64,000 nucleotides of DNA from Sinorhizobium medicae (GTDB lineage: Bacteria > Pseudomonadota > Alphaproteobacteria > Rhizobiales > Rhizobiaceae): positions 124,001 through 188,000 of the forward strand of contig NZ_VITA01000006.1 in NCBI RefSeq assembly GCF_007827695.1. Reading direction: 5' to 3'. Within the stretch, counting starts at the first letter, position 1, and each line of letters opens with the position of its first letter. The position numbers were made by a program, and so were the translations under genes. A model generated the notes under the pieces. It was not told the DNA's origin. It did not search any database and saw only the letters and a program-made list of their open reading frames with translations. This document shows positions 14,872-25,475 of this stretch, one piece after another.

Positions 14872-16326
14872 TCAGACGCCGCTTGCGGGGATGCCGCTGC
14901 GCTGTACTGCGCGAGGTGCCGTCACTTCCTTCCAGGTCGAAAGCGCGGTGCTGACAGCGGGGAAGGGGTCGCGCCGCACGAATTCGCCGTGGCCTTCCTG
15001 TGTCTTGACCGAACCCTCCTCGATAGAAACCACGCCACGCGACAGCGTGAAGCGCGGAAGACCGGTAACGGTCTTGCCTTCGAAGACGTTGTAGTCGATC
15101 GCCGATTGCTGCGTCTTCGCAGAGATCGTCTTCGACCGCTTCGGGTCCCACACGACGATGTCGGCATCGGCGCCGACGAGGATTGCACCCTTCTTCGGAT
15201 AGATGTTGAGGATCTTGGCGATGTTGGTCGAGGTGACCGCCACGAATTCGTTCATGGTGATGCGGCCAGTCGCGACGCCATGGGTCCAGAGCATCGGCAT
15301 GCGATCCTCCAGGCCGCCGGTGCCGTTCGGGATCCTGGTGAAATCGCCGACGCCGAAGCGTTTCTGCTCGGTCGTGAAGGCGCAATGATCGGTCGCGACC
15401 ACCTGCAGCGAACCGGAGGCGAGGCCCGCCCAGAGGCTGTCCTGATGCAGCTTGTTGCGGAAGGGCGGTGACATCACCCGACGTGCGGCGTGGTCCCAGT
15501 CCTTGTCGAAATACTCCGTCTCGTCGAGGGTCAGGTGCTGGATCAAGGGCTCGCCGAAGACGCGCATGCCCTTGGCGCGGGCGCGCCGGATGGCCTCATG
15601 CGACTGTTCGCAGGAGGTGTGCACGATGTAGACGGGACAGCCGGCCATGTCGGCGATCATGATCGCCCGGTTGGTGGCCTCGCCCTCGACTTCTGCCGGC
15701 CGCGAATAGGCATGCGCCTCGGGACCGGAATTTCCTTCCGCCAGCAGCTTCGCCTGCAACTGCGCAACCACGTCGCCGTTCTCGGCGTGAACCAGCGGCA
15801 GGGCGCCAAGTGCCGCGCAGCGCTGGAATGAGGAAAACATCTCGTCATCGTCCACCATCAGAGCGCCTTTATAAGCCATGAAGTGCTTGAAGGTGTTGAT
15901 GCCCTTCTCTTTGACGACGGACTCCATCTCGTTGAAGACCTGCTCGCTCCACCAGGTGATCGCCATGTGGAAGGAATAGTCGCAATTGGCGCGCGTCGAC
16001 TTGTTGTCCCACATCGTGAGCGCTTCGAGCAGCGACTGACCGGGCGAGGGGAGGGCGAAGTCGACGACCATCGTCGTGCCGCCGGCAAGCGCTGCCCGCG
16101 TCCCGCTTTCGAAATCGTCCGAGGAATAGGTGCCCATGAAGGGCATTTCGAGATGGGTGTGCGGATCGATGCCGCCCGGCATGACGTAGCAGCCGGTAGC
16201 GTCCAGTGTCTCGGCAGCCGATAGGTTCGGCCCGATCCCGACGATCCTGCCGCCCTCGATCTTCACGTCGGCCCTGTAGGTCAGGTCGGCCGTAACGATG
16301 GTTCCACCCTTTATGACAGTGCTCAT
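14872..16326 (-). CDS. hydA: Dihydropyrimidinase / D-hydantoinase
   Basis: A 484-residue cyclic amidohydrolase that opens the ring of dihydrouracil or dihydrothymine (and hydantoins) to N-carbamoyl beta-amino acids. The binuclear metal site is visible: His56-x-His58 in DPHTHLEMP, the carboxylated Lys147 in NTFKHFMAYKG, His180 in VHAENGD, a later His in VHTSCEQ, and Asp in VVATDHCAF. Length and C-terminal beta domain are typical. The next step of the pathway is encoded just upstream (the N-carbamoyl hydrolase), but a terminator lies between, so hydA has its own promoter in 16327-16460. Confidence 0.95.
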   Translation of the reverse strand: MSTVIKGGTIVTADLTYRADVKIEGGRIVGIGPNLSAAETLDATGCYVMPGGIDPHTHLEMPFMGTYSSDDFESGTRAALAGGTTMVVDFALPSPGQSLLEALTMWDNKSTRANCDYSFHMAITWWSEQVFNEMESVVKEKGINTFKHFMAYKGALMVDDDEMFSSFQRCAALGALPLVHAENGDVVAQLQAKLLAEGNSGPEAHAYSRPAEVEGEATNRAIMIADMAGCPVYIVHTSCEQSHEAIRRARAKGMRVFGEPLIQHLTLDETEYFDKDWDHAARRVMSPPFRNKLHQDSLWAGLASGSLQVVATDHCAFTTEQKRFGVGDFTRIPNGTGGLEDRMPMLWTHGVATGRITMNEFVAVTSTNIAKILNIYPKKGAILVGADADIVVWDPKRSKTISAKTQQSAIDYNVFEGKTVTGLPRFTLSRGVVSIEEGSVKTQEGHGEFVRRDPFPAVSTALSTWKEVTAPRAVQRSGIPASGV

Positions 16327-16500: not shown

Positions 16501-17751
16501 TCATTCCACGACTTCCGCCGTCTCGAGGACGGCATGAAAGAGGACGTCCGCGCCGGCGGCCGCCCAATCCTTGGAGATGTCCTCCGCCTCGTTATGACTG
16601 AGCCCATCGACGCAGGGGCACATGATCATGGTGGTCGGCGCGACCTTCGCGGCCCAGCAGGCATCGTGGCCCGCGCCCGAGACGAGGTTCATGTGGCTGT
16701 AGCCGAGCTTCTCGGCGGCGCCGCGCACGGTTTCGACCAGCTTCGGATCGAAGGTGACGGGATCGAAGTGCCCGACCGCCTCGATCGAACAGCCAACCCC
16801 GAGCCGCTCGCAGATTTTGGGCGCTTCGGCTTCGATCCGGGCCCGCATGCGGTCGAGCTTGGTCTGGTCGGGCGAGCGGATATCGACCGTGAACACCACT
16901 TTGCCGGGCAGCACGTTGCGGGAATTTGGCGAAAAGAACATCTGGCCGACACCGCCGACAGCGCCCGGCTGGTTTTCCATCGCGACGGTCTGAACCATTT
17001 CGAGAATGCGCGCCATGGCAAGGCCCGCATTGACGCGCATCTCCATCGGCGTCGAGCCCGTATGCGCCTCCTTGCCCGTCAGCGTGAACTCCAGCCACCA
17101 GAGGCCCTGGCAGTGTGTGACGACGCCGATCTGCCTGTTCTCGGCCTCGAGAATCGGGCCTTGTTCGATGTGGTATTCGAAATAGGCGTGCATCTTGCGC
17201 GCGCCCACCTCTTCGTCGCCGGACCAGCCGATGCGCTTCAATTCGTCGCCGAAGCTCTTCCCTTCCGGGTCCTTTCGGGCATAGGCGTAATCAAGCGTGT
17301 GGACGCCGGCAAAGACGCCGGAGGCGAGCATGGCAGGCGCGAAGCGGGCGCCTTCCTCGTTGGTCCAGTTGGTCACGACGACCGGGTGCTTCGTCCTGAT
17401 CCCGAGGTCGTCCATCGTGCGTACGACTTCGAGACCGCTCAGAACGCCGAGCACACCGTCGAACTTGCCGCCCGTCGGCTGCGTGTCGAGGTGAGAGCCG
17501 ATATGGACGGGCAGCGCATCCGAATCGGTACCCGGGCGGGTCATGTACATGGTGCCCATCTTGTCGACACCCATGGAGAGCCCCGCCTTTTCGCACCAGG
17601 ACTGGAAAAGCCGGCGGCCTTCACCGTCCGCATCCGTCAAGGTCTGGCGGTTATTGCCGCCGGCAACGCCGGGGCCGATCTTCGCCATTTCCATCAACGA
17701 ATCCCACAGGCGATCGGCATTGACGCGCCTATTCTCGCCAGGTGCTGCCAT
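16501..17751 (-). CDS. M20-family N-carbamoyl-amino-acid hydrolase (beta-ureidopropionase type)
   Basis: A 416-residue zinc or manganese amidohydrolase that converts N-carbamoyl-beta-alanine to beta-alanine, CO2 and ammonia, or acts on N-carbamoyl L-amino acids. The metal site shows in GSHLDTQPTGGKFDGVLG (His, Asp) and NWTNEEGARFAP (tandem Glu), then HIEQGPILE and, near the end, SGAGHDACWAAKVAPTTM. The dimerisation insert near residues 210-330 is present. Adjacent hydA supplies its substrate. It is divergent from the TetR gene, with a RutR-like operator 130 bases before its start. Confidence 0.93.
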   Translation of the reverse strand: MAAPGENRRVNADRLWDSLMEMAKIGPGVAGGNNRQTLTDADGEGRRLFQSWCEKAGLSMGVDKMGTMYMTRPGTDSDALPVHIGSHLDTQPTGGKFDGVLGVLSGLEVVRTMDDLGIRTKHPVVVTNWTNEEGARFAPAMLASGVFAGVHTLDYAYARKDPEGKSFGDELKRIGWSGDEEVGARKMHAYFEYHIEQGPILEAENRQIGVVTHCQGLWWLEFTLTGKEAHTGSTPMEMRVNAGLAMARILEMVQTVAMENQPGAVGGVGQMFFSPNSRNVLPGKVVFTVDIRSPDQTKLDRMRARIEAEAPKICERLGVGCSIEAVGHFDPVTFDPKLVETVRGAAEKLGYSHMNLVSGAGHDACWAAKVAPTTMIMCPCVDGLSHNEAEDISKDWAAAGADVLFHAVLETAEVVE

Positions 17752-17880: not shown

Positions 17881-17896
17881 TTGACCGGTTGGTAAA
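17881..17896. promoter_or_regulatory. RutR-like operator between the hydrolase and TetR genes
   Basis: TTGACCGGTTGGTAAA matches 12 of 14 defined positions of the E. coli RutR site TTGACCA-NN-TGGTCAA. It lies between the divergent N-carbamoyl hydrolase and TetR genes. A close relative occurs before preT at 25529-25544. Confidence 0.65.
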
Positions 17897-18029
17897 CATT
17901 ACAACTTCCGTGGCAGCACTCAAGCGGGAAAAATAAAAAACAGGAGTTGTTGCTTAAAAAACCGGCGGGTCCGTATTTTGGGCAAATTGCGCCGGACGTC
18001 ATGCGTCGGGGGTGTGGACAGGGGACGAA

Positions 18030-18671
18030 ATGGTACTTCCGAGAGCGGCTAGAACCCAGAGGCGCACGCGAATCCAGGAGGAGAAGGAGGAGCAGATTCT
18101 CGAGGCGGCGCTGGAGGTGTTTTCCGCAAACGGCTTTCGCGGTGCGACCGTCGATCAGATCGCCGAGGTGGCGGGCATGTCGAAGCCGAATCTGCTCTAT
18201 TATTTCCGCACCAAAGAGGCGATGCACCGGTCGCTGATCGACCGCGTCCTCGACACCTGGCTTGACCCTTTGCGCGCGTTCGATGCGGAAGGCAATCCGG
18301 TAGCCGAAATACGCAGTTATATCAGGCGAAAACTTGAGATGGCGCGGGACTTTCCGCGCGAAAGCCGGTTGTTCGCCAATGAGGTCCTGCAGGGCGCTCC
18401 GCATATCGTGGACGAGCTCAAGGGACCACTCAAGCAACTTGTGGACGAGAAGGCCGAAGTCATCCGCAGTTGGGCGAAGGCCGGCAAGATCGCGAAGTGC
18501 GATCCTTATCACCTGATCTTCGCTATTTGGTCGACGACCCAGCATTACGCCGATTTCGACGTTCAGGTGCGCGCCGTGCTGGGCCAGGAAAATGACGGCG
18601 AGGGGCGCTTTGAGGATGCGGCGCGCTTTCTGGAGGAACTGTTCGTCGGTGGGTTGCAGGTGCGTGAGTAG
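18030..18671 (+). CDS. TetR-family regulator, RutR-like
   Basis: A 213-residue repressor. The N-terminal helix-turn-helix is IQEEKEEQILEAALEVFSAN then VDQIAEVAGMSKPNLLYYF; the C-terminal ligand domain (FPRESRLFANEVLQGAPHI and IFAIWSTTQHYADF) resembles the RutR/YcdC class, which senses uracil and thymine. The ATG at 18030 is preferred over an upstream GTG at 18012. It is divergent from the N-carbamoyl hydrolase, and RutR-like operators lie in this intergenic region and before preT. It is therefore the likely controller of the pyrimidine genes here; the ligand is inferred from the family. Confidence 0.9.
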   Translation: MVLPRAARTQRRTRIQEEKEEQILEAALEVFSANGFRGATVDQIAEVAGMSKPNLLYYFRTKEAMHRSLIDRVLDTWLDPLRAFDAEGNPVAEIRSYIRRKLEMARDFPRESRLFANEVLQGAPHIVDELKGPLKQLVDEKAEVIRSWAKAGKIAKCDPYHLIFAIWSTTQHYADFDVQVRAVLGQENDGEGRFEDAARFLEELFVGGLQVRE

Positions 18672-18843: not shown

Positions 18844-20520
18844 TCAGCTCGGTGACGGTAGCGAAAGCGAGAGCTGTGACGCGTCACCCACTATCCAGGT
18901 TTCCAGCGTCGCCTGGCGGCCGCGCAGACTGATTTCTAGGCGTCTATGGCCTTCAAAGGCAAGACCGGCGCGCTGGACCAGTTCGGCGGAAACCGCAAGC
19001 TCGGCGTCGTGCTCTTTTGCAAGGCCTTCCAGGCGGCTCGCGGTGTTGATGGTGTCGCCGACGGCGGTGAGCGACGTTGCCTGACCGTATCCCATTTCGC
19101 CGATGATCGCCGGGCCCGCATGCAGGCCGATGGCGAGCCTCAGTGGCTGGTCGAGCTCCCCTTCGAATGTCTGGTTCAGCGCGCGGATGCCCTGCGACAA
19201 TCGGGCAGCGGCCGAAAGTGCCTGCCGGCAGGCTTCCGGCAAGGGGGTCTTCAGACCAAAGATCGCGAGTGCCCCGTCGCCGATGAACTTGTCGATTACG
19301 CCGCCCGAACCTTCGACGGCTTCGCCGACGACTTCGAAGTAGCGGTTGAGCAGGAAGACGGTGTCGTAGGGCAGCCTGTGCTCGGCAATTCGGGTGAAGT
19401 CGCGCAGGTCGCAAAAGAGCACCGCCACGCGGCGCTCGCGGCCGCCGGCATTCTGGCGGGCGATCTGCGTCTTGACCCCAATACTATCGGTATTGAGGAT
19501 CGGTACGACGCTCACATTGTGAACGGGCCGGAACTGACAGGCGAGGCGTATGTTTTCGGGCGCGCCGATGCGGGTCAGCGTCGCGAGCTCCGCTGCTTCA
19601 GGTGCGGGCTGATTCTCGAGCCCCTGGGTGATCCGGACGCGGCAGGTCGAGCAGCGGCCGCGTCCGCCGCAGACCGAAACATGCGGAATGCCGGCTGCCC
19701 GGCTCGCCTCGAGCACGCTGAAGCCGAGGCTGACGGCAGCGACCCGCCCGTCCGGATAACGGATGCGGATGCGGCCACGCGCAGGCATGGCGCGCAGCGC
19801 CAGCGTTGCGCCGATGAGGGCTGCGAAGCCGCCGTAAAATGCGAGCCGGATGCTTTCGAGCACAGCGGGATCGGCCCTTTCCTGCGACGCGCCGGCATAG
19901 GCACGGTCGCCGTAACCTCCATGTTCGGCATAGTCCCGCTCGAGCGAACGCGCGCCGTTCACGAAGCCGAGAAGCGCAAAGATCGGCACCAGAAGCGCGA
20001 CGGTATAGAGCAGGGTCTCATATCGCGGAAACCATGCGCGGCCGCGCATCCAGAACCAGGCGCCAAGACAGGCATGGCCCCAGACGACGATCAGCGCCAG
20101 CGACTGCCGGGAGGCGTTGATCGAGCTTGACCACAGGGTTCGCAGAATTCCAGCATAATCCGGGTAAATGCCCGTAAGGAGCGGCTCCACGCGGGTGGCG
20201 ACCACGTGAGGGACGAGCAGAAACGGCAGGCTCAGGCCAAAGACGATCTTCAGGGCTTCTCCGGCAGGCATTCTGAATGTCTGCCGCCTATAGAGGCTGT
20301 CGAGCGCCATAAGGAAATGCAGGAGCAGCGCTCCGTAAAGCACGACGGTACCCGGTACGCTGTGCCAGACTGAGGTAAAAATCCGCCGCCCCACTTCCAT
20401 CGCGCCGATCGAGACGAGTCCAAGCGCATGATTTGAGAAGTGACAGAGCACGAATATGCCGAGCACAGCCCCGGAGATCAGGTGCATCTTCTTGCGCGTG
20501 CTGGCGGAGAGTATCGTCAA
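18844..20520 (-). CDS. Class III adenylate cyclase fused to a membrane domain and a 2Fe-2S ferredoxin domain
   Basis: A 558-residue three-part protein. Residues 1-245 hold about six membrane helices with several in-membrane histidines (27, 31, 68, 105, 149), reminiscent of the cytochrome b-like anchor of succinate dehydrogenase. Residues 248-340 form a ferredoxin domain with Cys284-x5-Cys290-x2-Cys293 and Cys328, the adrenodoxin-type spacing for a 2Fe-2S cluster. Residues 365-550 are a class III cyclase: metal aspartates 371 (FCDLRDFT) and 415 (FIGDGALAIFG), and Lys411 for adenine. It should make cAMP under redox or oxygen control, which is inference. Rhizobia carry many cyclases, but this domain order is distinctive. 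It stands alone between a TetR gene and a LysR gene. Confidence 0.9.
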   Translation of the reverse strand: MTILSASTRKKMHLISGAVLGIFVLCHFSNHALGLVSIGAMEVGRRIFTSVWHSVPGTVVLYGALLLHFLMALDSLYRRQTFRMPAGEALKIVFGLSLPFLLVPHVVATRVEPLLTGIYPDYAGILRTLWSSSINASRQSLALIVVWGHACLGAWFWMRGRAWFPRYETLLYTVALLVPIFALLGFVNGARSLERDYAEHGGYGDRAYAGASQERADPAVLESIRLAFYGGFAALIGATLALRAMPARGRIRIRYPDGRVAAVSLGFSVLEASRAAGIPHVSVCGGRGRCSTCRVRITQGLENQPAPEAAELATLTRIGAPENIRLACQFRPVHNVSVVPILNTDSIGVKTQIARQNAGGRERRVAVLFCDLRDFTRIAEHRLPYDTVFLLNRYFEVVGEAVEGSGGVIDKFIGDGALAIFGLKTPLPEACRQALSAAARLSQGIRALNQTFEGELDQPLRLAIGLHAGPAIIGEMGYGQATSLTAVGDTINTASRLEGLAKEHDAELAVSAELVQRAGLAFEGHRRLEISLRGRQATLETWIVGDASQLSLSLPSPS

Positions 20521-20678: not shown

Positions 20679-21578
20679 CTACTCCATGATGCGCGGCAGC
20701 GCATTGGCCAGTTTATCGATCACCACCCGCAGTTTAGGCAGGACGTGTTGCGTTTGCGGCCAGACTGCATGGGCCTTGAAAATCAATCCGGGCCGGTCGG
20801 TCAGCACGCGGACGAGCTCGCCTTTCTGCACGCGCTCGCGCACGAGCCAGCAAGGCAGCCATGCAAGGCCGAAGCCCGCAGCGGCGGCATCGGCGATTGC
20901 TGCGAGATCGTCGAGTCTCAGCCGTGCCTGCGGCAATACGGCTTCCGCCGCCTTCCCCTCGGCGGGAAAGGTCCAGGATCGCGGTTCGCCTCCGCGGCAA
21001 TAGACGACCCCCTCATGTGCGGCGAGTTCCGCCACCTTTTTTGGCATGCCGCGCGCTTCGAGATAGGCCGGCGAGGCGCAGACCGTCATGCGCTGTTCCG
21101 CGACCGTGCGCATCATGAGGCCGGCGCCGTTGCCGAGCGGGGCGTTGCGGACGGCGAGATCGAAACCTTCGTCGAGGAGGTCGATGACGCGGTCGTTGAA
21201 GGAGAGATCGAACTCCAGATGCGGATGCGCCTGCAGCAGGTCGCGAAGCAATGGCGCCACGCATTGGCGTCCGAAGAGGACCGGCATCGAGATGCGAAGA
21301 CGACCGCGTATTTCGCGCCTCCCGGACTCGAGGAGGCTCTCGGCCGTTTTTATTTCACCGAGCGCCTTCTGGCAGCTCTCGTAGAAAAGCTGCCCTTCTT
21401 CAGTGAGGTTCTGAGTCCGTGTGGTGCGATTAAAAAGACGCACACCGAGCCTCTGTTCGAGCCTGGAAACCGTCTTGCCCACGGCCGACCGCGTAAGATT
21501 GAGTCGCGCGGCGGCAGCGGAAAAGCCGCCGGCGTCGGCGACCTCGACGAAGACCGAAATGCCTGTGAAGCGTTCCAT
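20679..21578 (-). CDS. LysR-family transcriptional regulator
   Basis: A 299-residue regulator with an N-terminal winged helix (FVEVADAGGFSAAAARLNLT and RSAVGKTVSRLEQRLGVRLF) and a two-lobe effector domain (LSFNDRVIDLLDEGFDLAVR, MMRTVAEQRMTVCASPAYL). It resembles the CrgA/YhcS class next to oxidoreductases. The frame runs 22 codons further, but the ATG at 21578 gives the standard start ERFTGISVF. It is divergent from the alcohol dehydrogenase-like gene, with a T-N11-A palindrome between them, so that gene is its likely target. Confidence 0.9.
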   Translation of the reverse strand: MERFTGISVFVEVADAGGFSAAAARLNLTRSAVGKTVSRLEQRLGVRLFNRTTRTQNLTEEGQLFYESCQKALGEIKTAESLLESGRREIRGRLRISMPVLFGRQCVAPLLRDLLQAHPHLEFDLSFNDRVIDLLDEGFDLAVRNAPLGNGAGLMMRTVAEQRMTVCASPAYLEARGMPKKVAELAAHEGVVYCRGGEPRSWTFPAEGKAAEAVLPQARLRLDDLAAIADAAAAGFGLAWLPCWLVRERVQKGELVRVLTDRPGLIFKAHAVWPQTQHVLPKLRVVIDKLANALPRIME

Positions 21579-21601
21579 GGATTGCGTCCTTTGAGGAACC
21601 A

Positions 21602-21616
21602 ATGATGGGAAATCAT
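21602..21616. promoter_or_regulatory. Candidate LysR binding palindrome
   Basis: ATGAT-GGGAA-ATCAT lies between the divergent LysR and oxidoreductase genes and fits the T-N11-A layout used by LysR-type regulators. Confidence 0.45.
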
Positions 21617-21682
21617 ACCGCAACTGGAGAGGCAAATTCAACACTATGCTCGCCCGACCGAAACAGATGGAAAGGAACGAGC

Positions 21683-22705
21683 ATGTCGAAATGGATGCAG
21701 GAATGGAGCACGGCGGCGGTGGGTCCGCACGATCTCAAGCTTGCTGAACGGCCGCTGCCGGAGGTCGGCGAGCACGATGTCCTCGTGCGGACGCTCGCCG
21801 TGTCGCTCAACTATCGCGACAAGCTGGTACTCGAGACCGGCATGGGGCTTGATCTCGCTTTTCCCTTCGTGCCGGCCTCCGACATGAGCGGAGTGGTCGA
21901 AGCGGTCGGCAAGAGCGTCACGCGTTTCCAGCCAGGCGATCGCGTGATCTCTACCTTCTCTCCCGGTTGGATCGATGGTTTAAGGCCGGGCAACGGCAGG
22001 ACGCCTGCCTATGCGACGCTTGGCGGCGCTTTTCCCGGCGTCATGTCGGAATATGTTGCCTTTCCGGAAGACTGGTTCGTGGCGGCTCCCAAAAGCCTTG
22101 ATGCCGCGGAGGCGAGCACCCTGCCATGCGCCGGGCTTACCGCCTGGTTTGCTCTTGTCGAAAGAGGGCACTTGAGAGCCGGAGACCGTGTCCTGGTGCA
22201 GGGGACAGGCGGAGTTGCGCTTTTCGGCCTGCAGATCGCCAAGGCAACCGGTGCCGAAGTCATCATCACCTCGAGCAGCGCGGAAAAGCTCGAACGGGCA
22301 CTGTCCCTTGGAGCCGATCACGGCATCAACCGTTCAAGCGAGGATTGGGTGGAGCGCCTATATCAGCTCACCGCGGACCATGGCGCGGATCACATTTTGG
22401 AGATCGCCGGCGGTGCAGGGCTCGGTCAGTCGCTGAGGGCTGTCGCGCCGGACGGGCGCATTTCGGTGATCGGCGTGCTCGAAGGCTTCGAGGTTTCCGG
22501 CCCTGTTGGGCCATTGCTTCTGAAGTCGCCGGTCGTGCAGGGCATCAGCGTCGGCCATCGCAGGGCACTCGAAGATCTGGTGGGCGCTGTCGAACGCTTG
22601 CGGCTGAAGCCCGTTATAGACAAACGCTACAAATTCGCAGAGTTTCCGGAGGCTCTCGCACATCTCGACCACGGCCCCTTCGGCAAGGTGGTGATAGAGT
22701 TCTGA
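21683..22705 (+). CDS. Zinc-independent MDR-family alcohol dehydrogenase / quinone oxidoreductase
   Basis: A 340-residue medium-chain reductase. The GroES-like N-terminal half contains LVRTLAVSLNYRDKLVLETG and FVPASDMSGVVEAVG; the NAD(P) site follows as VLVQGTGGVALFGLQIAKAT. The structural-zinc Cys cluster is absent and the catalytic Cys of zinc alcohol dehydrogenases is not in place, so a quinone or enone reductase activity is more likely than alcohol oxidation. AAGGA lies 8 bases before the ATG at 21683. It is divergent from the LysR gene and ends at a shared terminator facing preA. Confidence 0.88.
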   Translation: MSKWMQEWSTAAVGPHDLKLAERPLPEVGEHDVLVRTLAVSLNYRDKLVLETGMGLDLAFPFVPASDMSGVVEAVGKSVTRFQPGDRVISTFSPGWIDGLRPGNGRTPAYATLGGAFPGVMSEYVAFPEDWFVAAPKSLDAAEASTLPCAGLTAWFALVERGHLRAGDRVLVQGTGGVALFGLQIAKATGAEVIITSSSAEKLERALSLGADHGINRSSEDWVERLYQLTADHGADHILEIAGGAGLGQSLRAVAPDGRISVIGVLEGFEVSGPVGPLLLKSPVVQGISVGHRRALEDLVGAVERLRLKPVIDKRYKFAEFPEALAHLDHGPFGKVVIEF

Positions 22706-22769: not shown

Positions 22770-24083
22770 TCACTCGGCGGCCTGGCGGGCCATCGGGTTG
22801 TTGGGATGGGTCGTCCAGTTGGCGTAGTTCGGGTCGACCGGTTTACCCGTGCGCCGGTCGAGCGTGCCGGCAGGCAACGTTTCCATGGTAATGCAGTTGT
22901 CGACCGGACAGACATTGACGCAGAGGTTGCAGCCGACGCATTCCTCCTCGATCACCTCGAAATGGCGAACGCCGTTGACCAACTGGGTGATGGCCTGATG
23001 CGACGTGTCCTCGCAGGCGATGTGACAGCGGCCGCATTTGATGCAGGCGTCCTGATCGATCTTCGCCTTGGTGATGTAGTTGAGGTTGAGATACTGCCAA
23101 TCCGTGACGTTGGGGACGGCGCGGCCACTGATGTCGTCCAGCGTGCGATGTCCCTTGGCGTCCATCCAGTCGGAAAGTCCGGTAATCATCTCCTGGACGA
23201 TCTTGAAGCCATAGGTCATCGCCGCCGTGCAGACCTGCACATTGCCGGCGCCGAGCGCCATGAATTCGGCCGCATCCCGCCAGGTGGTCACGCCGCCAAT
23301 GCCCGAAATCGGCAAGCCGTGGGTCTCCGTATCACGGGCGATCTCGGCGACCATGTTGAGCGCGATCGGCTTAACGGCCGGACCGCAATAACCGCCATGG
23401 CTGCCGCGGCCATCGATCGAGGGCTCCGGCGAGAAGGTGTCGAGATTGACCCCGGTGATCGAATTGATCGTGTTGATCAGCGACACCGCATCGGTGCCGC
23501 CGGCCCTGGCAGCGCGGGCTGGCTTGCGGATGTCGGTGATATTGGGCGTCAGCTTGGTGATGACGGGCATGCGCGTATATTGCTTGCACCAGCGCACGAC
23601 CATCTCGATATACTCAGGCACCTGGCCGACAGCCGAGCCCATGCCGCGCTCGGACATGCCGTGCGGACAGCCGAAATTGAGTTCGATACCGTCTGCGCCC
23701 GTCTCCTCGACCAGGGGCAGGATCGCCTTCCAGGCATTCTCCTCGCAAGGCACCATGATCGAAGCGATCAATGCCCGATCCGGCCAGTTCATCTTCACCT
23801 GCTTCATTTCGCGCAGGTTCACATAGAGATCGCGATCGGTGATAAGCTCGATATTGTTCAAGCCCAGCAGCCGCCGGTCGGCGCCCCAGATCGCGCCGTA
23901 GCGCGGCCCGTTGACGTTGACCACCGGCGGTCCCTCTTCGCCGAGCGTCTTCCAGACGACTCCGCCCCAGCCCGCCTTGAAGGCGCGCTCGACATTATAG
24001 GCTTTGTCCGTCGGCGGCGCCGAGGCGAGCCAGAATGGGTTGGGGGATTTGATGCCGACGAAATTGTTGCGAAGATCAGCCAT
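22770..24083 (-). CDS. preA: NAD-dependent dihydropyrimidine dehydrogenase, subunit PreA
   Basis: A 437-residue subunit that reduces uracil and thymine to their 5,6-dihydro forms, the first step of reductive pyrimidine degradation. The FMN TIM barrel spans ~1-320 (NPFWLASAPPTDKAYNVERA, ELNFGCPHGMSERGMG with the catalytic Cys, ISGIGGVTTWRDAAEFM). The C-terminal ferredoxin part binds two 4Fe-4S clusters: CIKCGRCHIAC and CVGCNLCVNVCP. It lies 30 bases behind preT, with which it forms the heterodimer. Length and motifs match the E. coli PreA class. Confidence 0.96.
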   Translation of the reverse strand: MADLRNNFVGIKSPNPFWLASAPPTDKAYNVERAFKAGWGGVVWKTLGEEGPPVVNVNGPRYGAIWGADRRLLGLNNIELITDRDLYVNLREMKQVKMNWPDRALIASIMVPCEENAWKAILPLVEETGADGIELNFGCPHGMSERGMGSAVGQVPEYIEMVVRWCKQYTRMPVITKLTPNITDIRKPARAARAGGTDAVSLINTINSITGVNLDTFSPEPSIDGRGSHGGYCGPAVKPIALNMVAEIARDTETHGLPISGIGGVTTWRDAAEFMALGAGNVQVCTAAMTYGFKIVQEMITGLSDWMDAKGHRTLDDISGRAVPNVTDWQYLNLNYITKAKIDQDACIKCGRCHIACEDTSHQAITQLVNGVRHFEVIEEECVGCNLCVNVCPVDNCITMETLPAGTLDRRTGKPVDPNYANWTTHPNNPMARQAAE

Positions 24084-24113: not shown

Positions 24114-25475
24114 TCAGGCAACGGCACTCGCCAGCGGTTGAGCCGCGGCGAAAGCCCGGTCGATCGATCCGGCCGCATCGCGTCCCATCGCAACGGCGGA
24201 AACGGTGAGATCCTCGCCGCCGAGCACGCAGTCGCCGCCGGCCCAGACCTTCTCCAGCGACGTGCGTCCTTCGGCATCGACGACGATGCGGCCGCTTTTC
24301 ATCCGAAGCGCGCCGAGGGCGGAGGCCTCGAAGGTCTGACCGATGGCCTTGAAGATCTGATCGGCGGCGAGGATGCCGGTCTCCCCGGTCGTCGTCAGCT
24401 TCCCGTTATCGAGCGTGGTGTAGTCGAGTTCGATGCCGGCGACCCTGCCGTCCTTGACCGCAATACGCTTCGGCTGCAGCCAGTGACGGATGGTGACGCC
24501 CTTGGACGCCGCGAGGTCCTGCTCGAATCCGGAGGCGTTCATATGCTCCTTGCCGCGGCGATAGCAGATCGTCACCTCCTCTGCGCCGAGCAGCTTTGCC
24601 TGCACGGCGGCATCGATCGCAGTCATGCCGCCGCCGAGCACCACGACGCGCCGGCCGACCGGAATGTCGGCCTTTGTCTTCGACTGGCGAAGTGCTGCGA
24701 TGAAATCGACGGCATCCTCTACGCCTTCGGCGTTCTCGCCTTCAATGCGAAGTGCGTTTACCCCTGCGAGGCCGAGGCCGAGAAAGACAGCGTCGAATTC
24801 GCCTGCCAGGTCGGCAAGAGAGAAGTCGCGGCCGAGCGCTTTGCCGTGACTGACCTCGATGCCGCCGATCGAAAGCACATAGTCGACTTCCTTCTGGGCG
24901 AAATCGTCGACCGCCTTATAGGCGGCAATGCCGTATTCGTTCAGGCCACCGGCCTTTTCGCGCGCATCGTAGATCACCACGTCATGGCCCTTCACGGCCA
25001 GCCGGTGCGCGCAGGCGAGCCCCGCGGGTCCGGCGCCAACGACCGCGACCCGGCGGCCGGTGCGGGCGGATCGCGTGTAGAACTGTTTGTTTTCCGTCAT
25101 CGCGATGTCGGAAGCATAGCGCTGCAGACGGCCGATTTCGACCGGCCGCTCCTCTGCCGTGTTGCGCACGCAGGCTTCTTCGCAGAGCGTTTCGGTGGGA
25201 CAGACGCGGGCGCACATTCCACCAAGTATGTTCTGATCGAAGATCGTCTTGGCCGAGCCGATGGGATTACCGGTCGCGATCTGCCGGATGAAGAGGGGGA
25301 TGTCTATGGCGGTGGGACAGGCCGTCATGCAGGGCGCGTCATGACAGAAGTAACAGCGATCCGCGGCGACCAGCGCCTCATGCCTGTCGAGAGGCGCGTG
25401 AAGGTCGGAAAAATTGGCTTCGTATTCGGCAAGCGGCAAGCGCCCGCCGAGAATCCCAGATTGAGTCGTTCCCAT
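24114..25475 (-). CDS. preT: NAD-dependent dihydropyrimidine dehydrogenase, subunit PreT
   Basis: A 453-residue FAD and iron-sulphur subunit that passes electrons from NAD(P)H to PreA. N-terminal Cys-rich segments (CYFCHDAPCMTACPTAIDIP and CARVCPTETLCEEACVR) hold two 4Fe-4S clusters. The FAD site is VAVVGAGPAGLACAHRLAV and the NAD site is VVVLGGGMTAIDAAVQA. The protein resembles the small subunit of glutamate synthase. It is first in the preT-preA operon and has a RutR-like operator 54 bases before its start; the SorC-type gene diverges from it. Confidence 0.95.
   Translation of the reverse strand: MGTTQSGILGGRLPLAEYEANFSDLHAPLDRHEALVAADRCYFCHDAPCMTACPTAIDIPLFIRQIATGNPIGSAKTIFDQNILGGMCARVCPTETLCEEACVRNTAEERPVEIGRLQRYASDIAMTENKQFYTRSARTGRRVAVVGAGPAGLACAHRLAVKGHDVVIYDAREKAGGLNEYGIAAYKAVDDFAQKEVDYVLSIGGIEVSHGKALGRDFSLADLAGEFDAVFLGLGLAGVNALRIEGENAEGVEDAVDFIAALRQSKTKADIPVGRRVVVLGGGMTAIDAAVQAKLLGAEEVTICYRRGKEHMNASGFEQDLAASKGVTIRHWLQPKRIAVKDGRVAGIELDYTTLDNGKLTTTGETGILAADQIFKAIGQTFEASALGALRMKSGRIVVDAEGRTSLEKVWAGGDCVLGGEDLTVSAVAMGRDAAGSIDRAFAAAQPLASAVA

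Follow-up and report, generated by a model that had tools for sequence, protein, structure and literature searches.

The closest described system to the gene studied here is the adenylate cyclase CyaC (SMc01818) of Sinorhizobium meliloti. The passages of Klein et al. (2023, PMC10463352) used here report that its six-helix domain binds two haem-b, that it carries a [2Fe-2S] cluster, and that its cyclase activity responds to the redox state of ubiquinone. They also report that CyaC directly binds the TetR regulator CycR (SMc01819) and binds Clr in a nucleotide-dependent manner, and that CycR binds both CyaC and cAMP-Clr; the target genes of CycR are called unknown there. In addition, the part of the literature used for the Escherichia coli regulator RutR names W77, Y97, W167, Q171, and Q179 as its uracil contacts (PMC10891134), and a cited passage describes its binding site as a palindrome of about 16 bp.

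The window, that is, the whole stretch of 64,000 nucleotides of Sinorhizobium medicae DNA that was analysed, contains cyaC at 18844..20520 on the minus strand. The open reading frame encodes 558 amino acids from a TTG start and confirmed these coordinates and this strand. The start codon is unproven, because the frame stays open for 17 codons further upstream and an alternative ATG is present at codon 12. The related-loci search with cyaC kept 74 distinct loci, and the best named locus, the copy of S. meliloti 4H41, showed 91% identity over residues 1-554. The window gene is the ortholog of S. meliloti CyaC, a fusion of a di-haem membrane domain, a 2Fe-2S domain, and a class III adenylate cyclase, as seen from the reading frame, this identity, and the Pfam domains. 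A preliminary description of this DNA had proposed a redox- or quinone-gated source of cAMP, which is supported by the quinone-responsive activity reported for the 91% identical ortholog in the published passages. The layout and the interpretation of CyaC are correct but already in print, and the window gene confirms the known path by which the respiratory quinone pool acts on cAMP in root-nodule bacteria.

For the conservation analysis, 78 matching loci gave 59 full-length CyaC copies, window copy included, that were aligned; the 19 dropped were two frame-broken copies (L037 and L062) and 17 that matched only from residue 281 or later. The Fer2 domain (PF00111) lies between the membrane part and the cyclase at residues 267-332 (19525..19722, minus strand), with an E-value of 7.6e-8, over the Pfam cut-off. 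Its cluster motif is C284-x5-C290-x2-C293...C328, and each of the four cysteines was found in 59/59 copies, which bears out the earlier claim of a 2Fe-2S domain with the motif Cys-x5-Cys-x2-Cys...Cys. The Guanylate_cyc domain (PF00211, E = 4.6e-16, also over the cut-off) covers residues 363-543 (18892..19434, minus strand), and the fold matches there are cyclases. D371, K411, and D415 are all present in the window protein. Among the aligned copies, D371 and K411 were kept in 59/59 and D415 in 58/59, while D489, N492, and R496 were invariant; these six residues have catalytic roles in class III enzymes. The intact class III cyclase that had been claimed from Asp371, Asp415, and Lys411 was thus borne out as well. 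The class III cyclase family is matched 22 times in the genome of the window, and CyaC is one among many possible cAMP sources in this genome.

The preliminary description had also listed about six membrane helices with buried histidines at positions 27, 31, 68, 105, and 149, and had inferred haem binding from this pattern. Four of the five histidines stood: H27, H68, H105, and H149 were each present in 59/59 copies, whereas H31 was kept in 57/59. Furthermore, the four histidines and the four cluster cysteines were found in 20/20 relatives without a fused cyclase (18 cyclase-less and 2 with a separate cyclase frame), among which only the two split loci keep H31. Because they are conserved in the CyaC copies and in the cyclase-less relatives, unlike H31, we regard His27, His68, His105, and His149 as candidate haem ligands. 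His31 was rejected, being lost in 2/59 CyaC copies and in 18/18 cyclase-less relatives, and is probably not a haem ligand. The haem-binding inference fits the remaining four residues and the two haem-b published for the S. meliloti ortholog, but it does not extend to His31. In the work of Wissig et al. from 2019, CyaC histidine mutants reportedly lose haem and activity.

The six-helix membrane domain (residues 1-250; 19771..20520, minus strand) was defined from a model, a fold search, and this conservation. With the full-length model, the best 50 of 664 Foldseek matches were all cyclases (e.g. 1wc3), and residues 1-250 were therefore modelled separately. The resulting model was helical with a mean pLDDT of 87, and the four candidate histidines lie on four separate long helices (6-35, 55-78, 86-116, and 133-158). 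The best fold match in the PDB was chain C of 1e7p, Wolinella quinol:fumarate reductase, with a probability of 1.00, a TM-score of 0.53, and an rmsd of 5.7, and with an E-value of 0.098, which is weak. This chain is the di-haem membrane subunit. The comparison with succinate dehydrogenase-type subunits, which had been suggested earlier, thus gave a top fold of this type, though with a weak E-value. The sequence profile of the membrane domain had no match among PDB sequences up to E 10. Meanwhile, no sdh or frd gene was found among the seven window neighbours tested. The seven comprise genes of pyrimidine catabolism, regulator genes, and a dehydrogenase gene, and they do not form a cluster of flavoprotein and Fe-S enzyme subunits.

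The CyaC alignment was searched against 199 family genomes and 385 class genomes. Among 171 module loci examined, the membrane/2Fe-2S module is fused to a cyclase in one frame at 139, is cyclase-less at 30, and is split from the cyclase at 2. The two split loci (L132 and L133), where the cyclase is in an adjacent overlapping frame, stand outside both counts and may be a real split or a frameshift. Two others (L260 and L261) were left uncounted: they stop at or close to the end of a contig, and neither a cyclase nor MscS was seen. L262 and L263 are cyclase fusions truncated by their contig ends. A plasmid record, H15 (L219), one of 40 listed out of 158, is also a cyclase fusion. In five further loci (L134-L138), the 2Fe-2S domain is joined directly to the cyclase without a recognised membrane part.

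These counts bear on the question of whether the membrane/2Fe-2S part is a sensor at all. It might be a quinol:acceptor redox enzyme, with the cyclase regulated in some other way, and the ferredoxin domain does resemble electron carriers and NqrF, and the module also exists as a separate protein without cyclase. However, module and cyclase share one frame at 139 of the 171 loci, and the published activity of CyaC tracks the quinone redox state (PMC10463352, passages used here). We therefore consider a redox enzyme very improbable and keep the reading of a sensor.

The stand-alone module proteins have about 370-440 residues and end after the ferredoxin domain. For example, in the pair at L114:4971-8434, the cyclase-less membrane/2Fe-2S gene is directly followed by a gene of the MscS channel family. 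An MscS-family gene follows the module in 18/18 cyclase-less loci from the first genome searches. A profile was built from five of the module-neighbour channels, and the neighbours tested with Pfam (six genes in five loci) were all confirmed as MscS-family: all three Pfam MscS domains were found in those of L114, L120, L122 (two genes), and L131, and one of the three in that of L128. The first tally gave MscS in 22 of the 30 cyclase-less loci. Seven of the eight misses (L223-L229) arose because their 1.5 kb flanks were too short for the conserved part of the channel; with 5 kb flanks, MscS was found in all seven. In total, MscS stands next to the cyclase-less module in 29/29 loci counted (18 + 3 + 7 + 1, the last three numbers coming from additional genomes), which span four families (f1, f25, f63, and f278). 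The eighth miss, L188:1423-3021 (= L239:4923-6521), holds a module frame of 533 amino acids with an unclassified C-terminus in place of the cyclase and no Pfam match there; no MscS was found within about 4.5-5 kb, and this locus is outside the count of 29.

The cyclase-fused loci served as controls. MscS was found in 0 of the 139 fused loci, many of which have only about 1.5 kb flanks. Because the flanks are short in most of them, a fair comparison is with the 60 CyaC loci L009-L068 and 20 diverse fused loci. The former (5 kb flanks in most, shorter ones in some) contained no MscS. The latter, with 5 kb flanks, had no adjacent MscS; in one of these (L251), a weak MscS match lies at a distance of over 3 kb.

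The phylogenetic tree of the module comprised 69 sequences (28 channel-linked, 38 fused, and 3 other), with L231 left out as an incomplete sequence. All 28 channel-linked modules were on one branch with a support of 0.998. Thus, the pairing is one ancestral association that has long been kept, not 29 independent events. A single clade and a single ancestral event are also what would be expected if the module stood beside MscS by inherited gene order only, without functional coupling. Against this, the linkage survives in all 29 loci counted and in four families at a mean column identity of the stand-alone module of 48% (18 sequences). Moreover, the junctions are tight: in 13 of the 17 read (of 29) there is a possible 4-base overlap of stop and start, and in 2 of the 17 a 1-base overlap; of the remaining junctions, that of L114 is a 2-base gap and that of L120 has several start options. 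The channels themselves point the same way. When the L114 channel was searched against the 199 genomes, with at most five candidates per genome scored, there were 14 near-full-length matches of at least 50% identity (query included), and all 14 are beside a module gene. The next match (E = 3.5e-93) covered only part of the channel, and the other longer matches had 33-37% identity; two further module-linked channels, in genomes G103 and G088, are more divergent. Inherited order without coupling is consequently unlikely in our judgement.

The association of module and channel suggests a redox-coupled channel, in which the module would gate MscS according to its redox state. Among the matches listed, no title or abstract opening described haem, a ferredoxin, or quinone as the partner of an MscS channel. 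The sister family of the redox module paired with an MscS channel is thus new here as far as the literature searched goes. If functional, the pairing would be a way to couple respiration to channel opening, for which we found no description.

In the window, cyaC sits within a cluster for reductive pyrimidine catabolism. The cycR ortholog (SMc01819 type) at 18012..18671 on the plus strand encodes a RutR-like TetR regulator and is convergent with cyaC. On the other side of a predicted RutR-like palindromic operator (17881..17896, no strand assigned), found by pattern matching, follows an amaB-like gene for an amidase of the hydantoinase/carbamoylase family (16501..17751, minus strand; NF006769, 703 bits, above cut-off), which is a candidate beta-ureidopropionase, and then the dihydropyrimidinase gene hydA (14872..16326, minus strand; TIGR02033, 611 bits, above cut-off). 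Beyond cyaC lie genes for a LysR-family regulator (20679..21644, minus strand) and for a protein of the zinc-type alcohol dehydrogenase / quinone oxidoreductase family (21602..22705, plus strand), both with matches below cut-offs. They are followed by the gene of the dihydropyrimidine dehydrogenase subunit PreA (22770..24083, minus strand; NF006183, 742 bits, above cut-off) and by that of a PreT-like subunit (24114..25475, minus strand), which was named from its adjacency to preA and its similarity to the glutamate synthase small subunit, its matches being below cut-offs. The recurring gene order is preT-preA-(adh-lysR)-cyaC-cycR-amaB-hydA, where adh and lysR are included in most Sinorhizobium/Ensifer loci and absent from most Rhizobium/Pararhizobium loci.

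Of the 60 CyaC loci, 55 have a cycR homolog with at least 80% identity no further than about 2 kb from cyaC, in some cases at 1 to 1.7 kb; it was missing in L060, L061, L065, L066, and L068. In another 79 module loci, most of them with 1.5 kb flanks, the only RutR found was the window's own copy. Thus, the linkage of cyaC and cycR seems to be local to some of the Rhizobiaceae.

CycR matched the E. coli RutR structures in the PDB with an E-value of 2.5e-61 and is 49% identical to E. coli RutR over 203 residues. It was rejected as a member of the curated RutR family, since it scored below both model cut-offs (TIGR03613, E = 1.2e-72, 244 of 368 bits; NF011584, 227.7 of 230 bits), and it is therefore called RutR-like here. 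All five uracil-contact residues are kept in the window CycR. They are also kept wherever covered in the CyaC-linked CycR copies (54 or 55 of 55, one copy being uncovered at two positions) and in 29/29 further RutR loci.

For the operator, an assumed RutR consensus served as the reference. The palindrome in the gap between amaB and cycR has at most two mismatches to it in 68 of 75 loci, many of them close relatives, and at most three in 74 of 75, the exception being L204. In the shuffle control of this operator, on average 1.5% of the shuffles equalled the observed match. With up to three mismatches allowed, the pattern matched 5 times across the window, where 1.25 matches were expected. In the 6.5 Mb genome, the exact 16-mer has a single occurrence; at up to two mismatches there were two further places, and a reversed control pattern likewise gave two.

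The question is then whether CycR belongs with cyaC or with the pyrimidine genes. CycR might be a dedicated partner of CyaC, so that its likeness to RutR and its position would be incidental; direct binding of the two proteins is reported in the passages used (PMC10463352), and a cycR homolog lies near cyaC in 55 of 60 loci, as given above. The wider distribution argues otherwise. RutR matches were found in 83 genomes of a 101-genome family sample, and the best 30 loci were read, own copy included: an amaB-like gene adjoins in 22, of which just 6 also show cyaC in their 1.5 kb flank; in at least one further genome (G011), cyaC lies 2.5 kb from the RutR locus. In addition, the uracil contacts and the operator are retained in loci whose flank lacks cyaC. 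We thus regard a dedicated partnership with merely incidental RutR likeness as improbable. It appears that the regulator goes with the pyrimidine genes and that cyaC is the variable neighbour.

Taken with the uracil contacts, the pyrimidine cluster, and the conserved operator, CycR is likely RutR-like in function, with uracil as its probable ligand and the pyrimidine genes as its putative targets. A RutR-like, likely uracil-sensing CycR with a defined operator is new here: no paper linking CycR to RutR was found in the literature searched, and the passages of Klein et al. (2023, PMC10463352) used here mention neither RutR, uracil, nor pyrimidine. Given the likeness to RutR and a conserved operator with a single exact occurrence in the genome, the target genes of CycR are directly testable. 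For this extension and for the module-MscS partnership alike, the evidence comes from sequence, and the functions are proposed from it.

The mechanism may be pictured as follows. Quinone or quinol would exchange electrons with the two haem-b of the membrane domain, which, by analogy with the di-haem architecture of fumarate reductase, may be held by His27/His105 and His68/His149. The redox state of the haems, probably via the membrane-adjacent 2Fe-2S domain, would determine how active the dimeric class III cyclase is; the electron path through the cluster is our inference. The cAMP would then act through Clr. CyaC would also bind CycR, a putative RutR-type regulator that would respond to uracil and control the neighbouring genes for reductive pyrimidine degradation, and the complex of both could join respiratory redox state, cAMP, and pyrimidine status. 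We are highly confident that the best explanation as a whole is a CyaC ortholog with a cyclase set by quinone redox state, next to a CycR that would be a RutR-type, uracil-responsive regulator of pyrimidine genes. Tentatively, and with slightly more doubt than trust, we propose a wider reading in which the module may be a portable quinone-redox receptor. In the sister clade it would form an obligate, translationally coupled pair with its own MscS subfamily and gate or tune the channel by redox state, and in the window CyaC-CycR would connect pyrimidine degradation under uracil control with quinone redox state and cAMP.

Compared with the known systems, the window CyaC has its domains, ligands, catalytic residues, and gene neighbourhood in common with S. 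meliloti CyaC, and no difference of kind was found between them. The membrane part is of the same fold class as the di-haem-b SQR/QFR membrane subunit (1e7p chain C; sdhC b558 family), and both have one histidine on each of four long helices. At the sequence level, TIGR02046 of the sdhC b558 family matched the stand-alone relative L114 with an E-value of 5.7e-4, far below the cut-off and with no stretch passing alone. Unlike that subunit, the membrane part of CyaC and its relatives is joined either to a ferredoxin domain and a cyclase in one protein or has a channel as its partner. Meanwhile, CycR shares 49% identity, the five uracil-contact residues, and the operator with E. coli RutR, but it scores below the curated cut-offs, is flanked by genes of the reductive pyrimidine pathway, and is reported, in the passages used, to bind CyaC and cAMP-Clr (PMC10463352). 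Finally, the module-linked channels have the Pfam MscS domains in common with MscS-family mechanosensitive channels; unlike MscS channels in general, the 14 close matches of their subfamily in the 199 genomes all stand beside a module gene.
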